A stretch of DNA of 64,000 nucleotides from Chitinophaga filiformis. GTDB taxonomy: Bacteria > Bacteroidota > Bacteroidia > Chitinophagales > Chitinophagaceae. A program made the position numbers and the translations under genes. Where the stretch lies: NCBI RefSeq assembly GCF_023100805.1, contig NZ_CP095855.1, positions 992,001 through 1,056,000 of the forward strand, written 5' to 3'. Under the pieces are notes generated by a model that saw only the letters and a list, made by a program, of their open reading frames with translations, was not told the origin of the DNA and searched no databases. Position 1 is the stretch's first letter, and each line of letters begins with the position of its first letter. This document shows, piece by piece, positions 286 to 59,287 of the stretch.

Positions 286-734
286 GCCCGGGAAGCGTCT
301 TCGCAGCGCATCTGCATACAACTTATAAAGTCTCAATGCCTGAGGCGCCGAAACTGATCTTTGGATCTAATGACAGCGAAAACTGGTAGAAATTCTAACC
401 TATACGAATCGGGGATAAGATAAATCGTATTTATTCCCAATCATTTATAAAACAAGTATTTTATATAATCCTTGTAAGGCCGCTGCTATACTGCTTTACC
501 GGAGATAACCCATATATAACCCATATATAAGCCATATATGACCCATATATAATCCATATTTCTAAAGATATGGGTTATATATGGGTTATATATGGCTAAA
601 GTCTGCTTCATAGATGGATAAGAACAGCGAATGGTTCCTGCAAAAAACAGTATTCCCCGCCGGAATGATGAAGATGACAGCTGATGCATTATTTTAATAC
701 TTGTTATTATCTTTATATGATAAAGCAATTTCCT
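286..734. other. Gene-free stretch between tRNA-Thr and the TPR lipoprotein
   Basis: About 450 bp with no credible gene. It contains the 11-bp repeat foldback at 507-596 and otherwise AT-rich sequence. The minus-strand reading frame across it only translates the repeat into a YIWVIYG-type low-complexity string. Confidence 0.7.
507..596. repeat. 11-bp tandem array folding back on an inverted copy of itself
   Basis: Five contiguous 11-mers of the form (a/g)a(c/g/t)CCATATAT start at 507, 518, 529, 540 and 551; the fifth ends in TTT. After about 6 nt, about three inverted units follow (568-576, 577-587, 588-596; ATATATGGGTT form). The halves can pair into a long AT-rich hairpin or cruciform. It lies about 140 bp upstream of the TPR lipoprotein start. 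No T-run follows, so it is not an ordinary terminator. Function unknown. Confidence 0.85.
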
Positions 735-4512: not shown

Positions 4513-4568
4513 GGGATCAGGAATTGGATACGGCGGCAATGCCCATATTCAATTCCTGATCCCTTTTT
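4513..4568 (+). terminator. Hairpin terminator, member of a dispersed hairpin family
   Basis: Perfect 14-bp stem GGGATCAGGAATTG / CAATTCCTGATCCC (4513-4526, 4550-4563) followed by TTTTT on the plus strand. It serves the collagen-like gene and faces the 3' end of obg. The left arm plus the next 7 nt is nearly identical to the hairpin at 42741. Confidence 0.75.
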
Positions 4569-42740: not shown

Positions 42741-42798
42741 ATCAGGGATCAGGAATTGGATACGGGCGTCTGCGCTTATTCAAGCCCTGATCCCTGAT
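42741..42798. terminator. Hairpin after fabG, member of the dispersed hairpin family
   Basis: 13-bp perfect stem ATCAGGGATCAGG / CCTGATCCCTGAT (42741-42753, 42786-42798), continued after two mismatches by TTG/CAA. The left arm and following bases are identical over 21 nt to the hairpin at 4513. The weak T-run suggests a modest terminator between convergent genes. Confidence 0.65.
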
Positions 42799-52820: not shown

Positions 52821-53510
52821 ATGACACCTGGCATTATGTTTATGTCGCTGATCTTTATCGGGGTCAGCATGTTGATAAGCTGGAGATTGAAAAGCAAAAT
52901 CAGGGAATACAGCGCTATACCGACCTCTTCGGGGCTAACCGGTAAGCAGATTGCTGAAAAGATGTTGAAAGACAATGGGATATATGACGTGCAGGTGATT
53001 TCCGTTGATGGCTTTTTATCTGACCACTACGATCCGGCAAATAAAACGGTAAATCTCAGTCCGGATGTATATTCCGGGGCAAATGTATCGGCTGCAGCGG
53101 TGGCGGCGCACGAGTGCGGGCATGCGGTGCAGCACCAGCGGGCTTATCCCTGGCTGAACCTGCGTTCCAAACTCGTACCGGCGGTACAGTTCAGTTCCGG
53201 CCTGGTACAATGGGTATTGCTGGGCGGTATTTTGCTGATAAATGTCTTCCCGGCACTGTTGCTGGGTGGTATTATCCTTTTCGGGGTGACCACGATTTTT
53301 GCCCTGATAACCCTGCCTGTGGAGTTTGATGCTTCCAGGAGGGCCCTGGCCTGGCTGGACAATACCTCGCTGATGCGCAGGGAAGAGCATGACAAGGCGA
53401 AGGACGCCCTCTGGTGGGCGGCAATGACCTATGTGGTGGCAGCGATCGCATCTATAGTTACGCTGTTGCAGTATATCATGATCTATGCAGGCGCCAGGAA
53501 CAGGGACTAA
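52821..53510 (+). CDS. Membrane zinc metallopeptidase, YugP-like (neutral zinc metallopeptidase family 2)
   Basis: 229 residues. The order is an N-terminal transmembrane helix, a short domain with LSPDVYSGANVSA, the zinc motif AHECGHAVQH (HExxH, ~93-102), then three more hydrophobic segments. The downstream FDASRRALAWL supplies the probable third ligand region (EFDASRRA). The substrate is unknown; membrane quality control is a guess. Single gene with a terminator at 53540. Confidence 0.9.
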   Translation: MTPGIMFMSLIFIGVSMLISWRLKSKIREYSAIPTSSGLTGKQIAEKMLKDNGIYDVQVISVDGFLSDHYDPANKTVNLSPDVYSGANVSAAAVAAHECGHAVQHQRAYPWLNLRSKLVPAVQFSSGLVQWVLLGGILLINVFPALLLGGIILFGVTTIFALITLPVEFDASRRALAWLDNTSLMRREEHDKAKDALWWAAMTYVVAAIASIVTLLQYIMIYAGARNRD

Positions 53511-53539: not shown

Positions 53540-53573
53540 AGAGGTCGGGAAAATGCTTCCCGGCCTCTTTTTA
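53540..53573 (+). terminator. Terminator of the zinc peptidase gene
   Basis: Stem AGAGGTCGGGAA / TTCCCGGCCTCT (one G-T pair; 53540-53551, 53558-53569), then TTTTT. Confidence 0.9.
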
Positions 53574-53635
53574 TGATCGCGGGAACGCACAATGGAACGT
53601 GCACGGAAACCTTATGCTTTCTTTGAGGTATAGTG

Positions 53636-53725
53636 GAGGTTCGCTCAGGGTAGCCTCATCCTCCCTTAATCTTCCGTTCCGGAACGGAAGATTAAGGGAG
53701 GATGAGGCTACCCTGAGCGAACCTC
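53636..53725. repeat. 90-bp perfect palindrome with no spacer
   Basis: The arms 53636-53680 and 53681-53725 are exact reverse complements over 45 bp and meet at TTCC|GGAA with no loop. Beyond them GTATAGTG (53628-53635) pairs with TACTATAC (53737-53744) across an 11-nt insertion present only on the right. No T-run at either end. Confidence 0.95.
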
Positions 53726-53822
53726 GGGCGAATCTCTACTATACATATCAGATACAATGTATCGGTTAAGCTGGCTTCCAGGACTTATGCATCGGCTTCG
53801 ATATGACTGTAGTGCGACTATA

Positions 53823-53895
53823 GTACCAATGGCCTGAACTTACGTTTATCTTACGTCTTGAACGTAAGATGAACGTAAGTTCAGGCCATTGGTAC
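53823..53895. repeat. 73-bp long foldback (34-bp arms, 5-nt loop)
   Basis: The left arm starts GTACCAATGGCCTGAACTT and the right arm ends AAGTTCAGGCCATTGGTAC. The arms pair over 34 positions with one G-T wobble and a CTTGA loop (53857-53861). Sequence TTACGT recurs inside each arm. No T-run. Confidence 0.92.
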
Positions 53896-57406: not shown

Positions 57407-58120
57407 ATGTTGCCAAAGTATAAGCGTATTTTACTCAAATTGAGCGGTGAATCCCTGATGGGAGAAGGTAATTATGGTATCGATCACAGAGTGATCACGC
57501 AGTATGCGTACGATATTAAAGCTGTGACCGACCTTGGAGTACAGGTAGCCGTGGTAATTGGAGGTGGTAACATTTATCGTGGTATGAATGAAGCAGAAAC
57601 CGGCATAGAAAGGGCCCAGGGAGATTATATGGGTATGCTGGCAACGGTGATCAACGGTATGGCCATGCAAAGCGGCCTGGAGAAAGTAGGGCTATATACC
57701 CGTCTTCAGTCTGCCATTAAAATGGAGCAGATCGCTGAACCATACATCCGTCGCCGTGCTATCCGTCACCTCGAAAAAGGCCGTGTAGTGATATTTGGCG
57801 CGGGTACCGGTAACCCTTACTTCACCACAGATACGGCCGCTTCCCTGCGTGCTATAGAAATACAGGCAGATGTGATCCTGAAAGGAACCCGTGTCGATGG
57901 TATCTACACTGCCGATCCGGAGAAAGATCCAACTGCTACCCGTTTCGAATCTATCACCTTCTCTGAAGTGTACCAGAAATCACTCAACGTGATGGACATG
58001 ACCGCATTCACCCTCTGCCAGGAGAATAAACTGCCTATTATCGTATTTGACATGAATAAGGGTGGTAACCTGCTGCAGGTAATAATGGGCAAGAATGTAG
58101 GTACGCTTGTGAAGGGTTAA
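57407..58120 (+). CDS. pyrH: UMP kinase
   Basis: 237 residues. It phosphorylates UMP to UDP (amino-acid-kinase fold, unlike eukaryotic enzymes). Signatures: [52 protein letters not shown]. The position after tsf is common, but here a terminator and ~150 bp separate them, so it has its own promoter. Confidence 0.98.
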
Positions 58121-58143
58121 TCTGATTGCTGTATTACTGATAT

Positions 58144-58208
58144 CAGGGACCAGGAATTAAGAACAACATTGTCCGTTGTTCTTAATTCCTGGTCCCTGTT
58201 TTTATTTC
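58144..58208 (+). terminator. 24-bp perfect-stem terminator after pyrH
   Basis: Arms 58144-58167 and 58175-58198 are exact complements over 24 bp (CAGGGACCAGGAATTAAGAA...), with loop ATTGTCC and exit TTTTTATTT. It is convergent with the 3' end of the DUF3298 gene. The core CAGGAATTAAGA links it to the hairpins at 4513, 42741 and 60066. Confidence 0.88.
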
Positions 58209-59287
58209 AACAGGGACCTGATGTTCTTATAAGGCACGAACAGGGTTACCTGGCCTAATGCATATGGCCCTATCTCGTAAGGTGTATAACTGAAGCCGAT
58301 ACCTTTGTCCGTTACCAGGAAATTATCATTGGGAACGATCTCTTTGGTGAGCAGCATCGTTTCCAGTTTCTCCCCATCCGCCAGTTTATAGATGCCCCGG
58401 AAGGATTTCTCCAGTTCGGGTATCAGCTCCGTTTTATAGTCTGGTTTCAGGATGTCTTCCGGCTTCAGGACCTTCTTTTTCTCCAGATCCAGTACCTGGT
58501 AATGTGCCCCATAATTGCCGTGTGCACCACCGGTGAATTCATAACTGAAATATTCCAGTACCAGCAGTGGGTATTGGTTCCAGACTATTTTAATATCGGC
58601 ATCAGCAGCCCAGTTGGCTGTCGCAGGAATGCCCTCCGTGGTATCCAGGTCTTTTTCATTGACCTTGTAGGTGATCAGGAAAGAGTCAATATCCCGGCGT
58701 ATATATTTGTTCGCGTCATTGGCAGGTTTGCCATCTGTGATGCAATTGCGTATAAAAGCGGCCGTAGTCTCGTCAACACCCGCGGCAGGCCATACAATGC
58801 TGTTGGTTGCCTGGCCGGTTGGCGTATTTGGATTGCCGGGGAAAAGATCTACCGAGTCGGCAGCATACAGCACATCGAGCGGAATGGTGTTTTCCTGGCT
58901 TGGTTTGAGCTCAAAAGGATAGGAGGTACCCTTACCCCTCCATTTGCCTGTAAAGTTACCAAGACTGTCCAGTTTGCCCGAAAACAGCCTTTCCTCGTTG
59001 CGGTCAGTGTTCTCATACAGGATCACCTTATCGCCTTCCGGACTACCCCATATCATAATAGGTTCACCAACCTTATCATAAGTATAATATCCGCGGAAGA
59101 TCCAGATACCTGATTTAACAAGGTCCATGGTCACAGCTTCCGTTCCGATGGTGCCTTTCAGGTGGAGATAATAGAAAGCAGTTTTGGTAGGATCAGGGAC
59201 TTTTGAAGTCTGCGTCTGCTGCTTTGTTTTCTTGCCGCAGGAGACGAGCACACAACAGGTAATAGCTAATAATAATATGGTTCTCAT
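58202..59287 (-). CDS. DUF3298-type lipoprotein
   Basis: 361 residues from ATG, lipoprotein signal MRTILLLAITCCVLVSC. The N-terminal ~120 residues are beta-rich (IFRGYYTYDKVG). The C-terminal part matches the DUF3298/RsiV-like domain (YEFTGGAHGNYGAHYQVLD, then YEIGPYALGQVTLFVPY). In other bacteria this domain binds ligands such as lysozyme in RsiV; the ligand here is unknown. Surface or periplasmic. The stop overlaps the convergent pyrH hairpin region. Confidence 0.88.
   Translation of the reverse strand: MRTILLLAITCCVLVSCGKKTKQQTQTSKVPDPTKTAFYYLHLKGTIGTEAVTMDLVKSGIWIFRGYYTYDKVGEPIMIWGSPEGDKVILYENTDRNEERLFSGKLDSLGNFTGKWRGKGTSYPFELKPSQENTIPLDVLYAADSVDLFPGNPNTPTGQATNSIVWPAAGVDETTAAFIRNCITDGKPANDANKYIRRDIDSFLITYKVNEKDLDTTEGIPATANWAADADIKIVWNQYPLLVLEYFSYEFTGGAHGNYGAHYQVLDLEKKKVLKPEDILKPDYKTELIPELEKSFRGIYKLADGEKLETMLLTKEIVPNDNFLVTDKGIGFSYTPYEIGPYALGQVTLFVPYKNIRSLLK

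Follow-up and report, generated by a model that had tools for sequence, protein, structure and literature searches.

The perfect 90-bp palindrome found upstream of rplM in Chitinophaga filiformis belongs to a lineage-specific family of palindromes, dispersed through intergenic DNA and composed of mirrored 11-bp units, in which the two arms of a copy change together. We consider it reasonably probable that it is a resident copy of this Chitinophaga-specific family whose arms are homogenised by template switching, and that the family is most likely selfish. The palindrome lies in a 64,000-nucleotide stretch (hereafter the window) of a host genome of 8.26 Mb assembled as a single contig (G000).

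The initial annotation of the window described a perfect and spacerless palindrome, with symmetry resuming past an 11-nt one-sided stretch and neither T-run nor coding content, and this description is borne out at the window copy. The two arms (53636-53680 and 53681-53725) show 100% complementarity and abut directly (0-nt spacer), for a chance expectation of ~4^-45 per position for exact 45-bp arms, and the strand folds as DNA at -58.7 kcal/mol (z -16). With its outer unit, the arm reads GAGGTATAGTG GAGGTTCGCTC AGGGTAGCCTC ATCCTCCCTTA ATCTTCCGTTC C and is followed by its mirror (Table 1). The one-sided stretch is an extra repeat unit rather than a random insertion, because GGGCGAATCTC repeats the preceding unit GAGCGAACCTC in tandem, with some divergence; beyond it, TACTATAC stands opposite GTATAGTG. 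No T-run, ORF or nearby transposase gene was found at this palindrome, which occupies an intergenic region bounded by the terminator of a zinc metallopeptidase gene (52821-53510, PF04298) on one side and by rplM (54302) on the other. A second palindrome of a different type (B) lies 97 bp away; it had been overlooked, as had the division into 11-bp units and the copies elsewhere in the genome. Matches to Rfam families at gathering score in the window were to tRNA only. The window also carries another dispersed hairpin family, with the foot ATCAGGGAYCAGGAATT and no 11-bp units (58120-58222, 42741-42798 and 4513-4563).

Table 1. Palindromes, repeat units and terminator in the window (positions are those of the window)
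Feature	Position	Strand	Sequence or remark
Third palindrome built of 11-bp units, near tRNA-Thr	530..597	.	(CCCATATATAA)n
Intrinsic terminator of the zinc metallopeptidase gene	53540..53568	+	upstream of both palindromes
Outer left 11-bp unit, without mirror	53625..53635	+	GAGGTATAGTG
Type A palindrome, two exact 45-bp arms	53636..53725	.	GAGGTTCGCTC AGGGTAGCCTC ATCCTCCCTTA ATCTTCCGTTC C and mirror; ~16 type A copies genome-wide
Extra right-hand 11-bp unit, the former "one-sided insertion"	53726..53736	+	GGGCGAATCTC; GAGCGAATCTC in the orthologue of C. filiformis ZLX-1
Outer 11-bp unit of type B, overlapping the arm start	53816..53826	+	GACTATAGTAC; from the B alignment
Type B palindrome, 34-bp arms (1 mismatch)	53823..53895	.	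5-nt loop cttga; units ACTTACGTTTA/TCTTACGT

The search for further foldbacks with arms of at least 30 bp, which the initial annotation had proposed, revealed a dispersed family in the host genome and in its congeners. Searching the host genome with the window stretch gave ~16 places of type A and ~30 related to type B or to a further type, C. In ~0.98 Mb of the same genome, sampled blind to palindromes, all those with arms of at least 30 bp belong to the 11-bp-unit class, and the remaining hairpins are mostly A/T-flanked terminators with shorter arms. Over 100 arms of at least 30 bp, the mean self-match by autocorrelation is 0.63 at lag 11 and at most 0.31 at any other lag, although these arms are not independent, since most were retrieved by similarity to A or B. 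The period is common to very different sequences, including A, B, C, ATACAAGGTTT, CCCATATATAA and the types present in G007 and G013. Arms in the family are ~35-60 bp long and nearly perfect. By crude ORF calls, 85 of 86 copies are intergenic, and their neighbour genes are in tandem (47), convergent (23) or divergent (16), so there is no terminator-like preference. A role as intrinsic terminator was rejected: the window copy has no T-run, there is no convergent bias, divergent genes flank 16 of the 86 copies, and the real terminator is separate (Table 1).

Copies of type A differ from one another, yet nearly all of these differences are repeated in the opposite arm. Counting pairs outside the search seed, only 4 of 504 are mismatched among 24 type A copies, against 95 +/- 8 when right arms are shuffled among copies, and 58 of 858 among 39 T-core copies, against 355 +/- 23. 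The mirrored alleles include 41 transversions (12 in type A, 29 in T-core) and 29 transitions, and one copy (L035) has the same 1-bp deletion in both arms. One-sided changes are retained in some copies of G007 and of type C, which counts against arm copying. The one-sided mismatches (11 G.T, 13 A.C and 34 other) show no wobble excess, which fits copying of DNA and does not fit RNA wobble intermediates. A selection on RNA acting through wobble pairs was rejected for this reason, and the role in dsRNA formation and RNase III cleavage that had been suggested earlier is a conceivable one, with no support from wobble pairs. As the arms change together, something in the cell re-copies, or re-selects, one arm to match the other.

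The same holds at orthologous sites. Alignment of the rplM intervals, as advised in the initial annotation, showed that C. filiformis ZLX-1 (G028) has an orthologous palindrome, which differs from the window copy at five positions over 44-bp arms (two of them within the 33-pair count), all five mirrored. Both copies retain the same unmirrored outer units, with TATAGT on the left and TTCGC on the right; since these are common and the inner arms have changed in mirror, the orthologous copies evolved in place. Across five loci of the close pair formed by Chitinophaga sp. S165 (G010) and the MAG CABHOY, 17 differences are mirrored and 2 one-sided. Moreover, in a handful of cases the spacer is inverted with the arms intact: same-oriented A-B units of ZLX-1 carry the loop in both orientations (TTTTGA and TTCAAA), and the mbl copy of G026 has its loop inverted.

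These observations dispose of the possibility of an assembly artefact or of chance, to which we attach a negligible probability. Chimeric reads can yield perfect spacerless palindromes, but ~16 copies of type A lie in one closed contig, another genome, assembled independently, has at the orthologous site a palindrome with mirrored substitutions, and 15 genomes contain 9-45 copies of one subtype each, for zero matches to a reversed control pattern.

Upstream of rplM, type A is present in the host and in ZLX-1, palindromes of other types in S165 and G007, and none in G026. Of the five genomes whose rplM is most similar, four thus have the site filled, and the recent origin contemplated in the initial annotation is not supported. 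Upstream of gltB, 11-bp-unit palindromes of differing types occur in all six closest genomes and in none of 24 others. At mbl, a core is common to S165, the CABHOY MAG, ZLX-1 and G026, and the outer arms are species-specific. The latter two loci were chosen because copies had already been seen there in more than one genome, so they do not give an unbiased rate of sharing. Downstream of mbl, G018 (L275:2907-2987) and G019 (L276:2910-2982) have GCAAAG-rich palindromes with 36-40-bp arms, whose unit is unlike the 11-bp class.

The main rival to arm copying is natural selection for pairing, from which mirrored changes are also expected. The arms would then stay paired because a protein binds the hairpin, be it ssDNA, cruciform or RNA, or its 11-bp-phased repeats, and thereby serves the host, for example through a nucleoid or segregation landmark or in RNA processing. 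That palindromes keep their loci across species at rplM, gltB and mbl while their sequence changes speaks for such a function, as do their all-or-none distribution among genomes and the fact that nearly all arms of at least 30 bp have a period of 11 bp, about that of one turn of the helix. The strict unit is indeed a hint of a helical-phase constraint, and it is not predicted by template switching alone. However, the copies show no preference for orientation or gene class, have no conserved neighbour gene beyond orthology and no wobble excess, and are absent from some orthologous sites (rplM in G026, mbl in the host), and we therefore regard selection as a fairly unlikely explanation.

The palindromes may alternatively represent a non-autonomous, REPIN-like element with two hairpins (A-spacer-B) that a putative transposase would mobilise in trans, in which case perfect arms would mainly mark recent copies and shared loci would be insertion hot spots. 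Consistently with this, the A-B pair recurs in ZLX-1 with its short spacer and flanks conserved, the types found at one locus vary between species, and several sites occupied in one species are vacant in another, such as that of type B in the window, which is missing from the orthologous site in ZLX-1. This reading is nevertheless unlikely: the recurring neighbours of the palindromes are orthologues only, and neither an autonomous copy nor a conserved partner gene was found near them, the only Y1 transposase has different REPs of its own, and the unmirrored outer units common to orthologues with mirror-changed inner arms point to evolution in place. Of the options that the initial annotation had listed, the data favour two, ongoing template-switch correction, through the mirrored changes and loop inversions, and a mobile palindrome in the sense of a multi-copy dispersed family. 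Its readings are thus partly supported: an artefact is excluded, a recent origin finds no support, and removal by SbcCD (see below) is contrary to what is observed.

Its remark that no transposase lies nearby holds for the window copy and not for the rest of the genome, where an IS3-type element targets the family. This element is 1493 bp long and present in nine full copies (L040-L048), 98-100% identical. All nine lie inside an arm of an 11-bp-unit palindrome, ~44 bp (four units) from the centre wherever the palindrome is measurable, and in every case it is the orfA end that points to the hairpin. It generates a 3-bp duplication (ATC or TAT), and its OrfB has an rve domain (E 4e-19), while OrfA has no Pfam match. 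An rve/DDE OrfB, a duplication of 3-4 bp and the location of every copy in a palindrome are the features of an IS3-family element that targets palindromes, and this element shows all three. The palindromes were considered as possible ends of the element, since A and B flank it at several places, but once the IS and one target copy are taken out, several of these loci read as longer palindromes, with arms of 45-51 bp in L040, L041 and L042; the IS is therefore the guest and the palindrome its target. An IS-derived MITE was likewise rejected, as the ends of the IS (TGTCAGGTCCTGAAATAGG) bear no relation to the palindromes, inside which the IS lies. A different IS3-type element (OrfB of ~289 aa) lies between C and B palindromes at another locus (L024, G000:C1:3864500-3870500).

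Concerning distribution, we used TACGT repeated at 11 bp and mirrored as a pattern for one subtype, with the reversed pattern as control. This subtype is present in 15 of 79 Chitinophaga genomes and absent from the other 64, and the control had no match in any of the 79. In a collection of 84,980 species, a stricter core pattern matched only Chitinophaga and one MAG named Flavihumibacter (CABHOY01, loci e.g. L191 and L211). Presence in another genus was rejected, for the flanks in this MAG are ~93% identical to those of Chitinophaga sp. S165, and to judge from these sequences it is probably a misnamed Chitinophaga. A phage or plasmid source was also dismissed, as viral contigs and plasmids gave no matches. 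In open-access papers, we found nothing relevant on an 11-bp palindrome family in Bacteroidetes or Chitinophaga.

According to the initial annotation, such palindromes are normally removed by SbcCD. The opposite is observed here, albeit confounded by phylogeny: the host genome encodes SbcD adjoining a probable SbcC (a 1284-codon frame with a Walker A-like start), and the family occurs in SbcCD-bearing genomes. SbcD is patchy in Chitinophaga, and is above cut-off in all eight palindrome-bearing genomes tested (G000, G007, G010, G013, G026, G028, G048, G057) and in none of nine palindrome-free ones (G001-G006, G014, G018, G019), with a sub-threshold match in G003. The two presences thus agree in 17 of 17 genomes (8 both, 9 neither), although this match may reflect a single event, because five of the bearers form one clade in a three-protein tree and the G013/G014 split has a support of only 0.48. 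SbcCD+, recombination-proficient E. coli tolerates a 246-bp interrupted palindrome, and a 460-bp perfect palindrome is lethal upon SbcCD expression (PMC4245961); there is thus no necessity for palindromes of 70-120 bp to be purged. Given the agreement in 17 genomes, one might envisage a transposase-free repeat system tied to SbcCD, where the nuclease cleaves the replication hairpin and the break is mended on the template of the other arm or of another copy, so that the palindrome is both restored and spread. We hold this to be quite improbable; if true, the nuclease thought to purge palindromes would be what maintains them.

Template switching is, for us, the most plausible cause of the mirrored arms, its reported signature being arm homogenisation together with spacer inversion (PMC8604942). 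As a replication fork passes, one strand would fold at the palindrome and the polymerase would copy one arm from the other, so that most mutations would end up in both arms or in neither, with an occasional flip of the loop. The outer arms are alike among the copies of one species and unlike between species, which suggests exchange between copies or re-insertion. Ectopic exchange, perhaps begun when SbcCD cleaves the hairpin and recombination repairs the break, could have this effect, and the differing palindrome types of six species at gltB require that copying of arms in place be complemented by ectopic replacement or re-insertion. The element would most likely serve no host function, persisting as a selfish repeat that preserves its structure.

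In bacteria, instability is what one expects of long perfect palindromes, yet each genome here has tens that outlast speciation, with arms co-changing at the same sites. Arm homogenisation in bacteria can thus be studied from a natural comparative record, the action of SbcCD on palindromes of ~90-120 bp can be tested directly, and the IS3-type element comes with a clean target-site system.

Several known systems share some of these features. Like REP, REPIN and BIME sequences, the palindromes are dispersed, intergenic, hairpin-forming, multi-copy, sometimes arranged as two hairpins, and targeted by an IS (PMC1525189; PMC3116915). REPs are short palindromes of 20-40 bp with a GTAG/GGAG or CGTC foot tag (PMC3733652), whereas the arms here are ~35-60 bp and nearly perfect, consist of mirrored 11-bp units and have no such tag; nor do the palindromes have a cognate RAYT. 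The single RAYT (Y1_Tnp) gene of the host lies beside a classic GTAG REP array (GTTTGTAGCCCGGGGTGGTAACCCCGGG) with long tandem units (L060, G000:C1:8254402-8254746 with flanks), and a RAYT origin was rejected because its flanks hold these REPs only and none of the palindromes. IS1397 and ISKpn1 resemble the Chitinophaga element as IS3-family members (here with rve and a 3-bp duplication) inserting in a dispersed palindrome (PMC1525189); the latter differs in sitting in the arm, ~44 bp from the centre, with its orfA end always hairpin-ward. Mitochondria of Nematomorpha likewise contain many long perfect palindromes per genome, but these are in coding genes of animal mitochondria, and the abstract reports no family of 11-bp units (PMC6649704). 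A further parallel is given by inverted repeats homogenised by template switching, in which arms are likewise homogenised and spacers inverted (PMC8604942); known cases are mostly of short arms or single loci, whereas in Chitinophaga a whole family with 35-60-bp arms is concerned, in several species.
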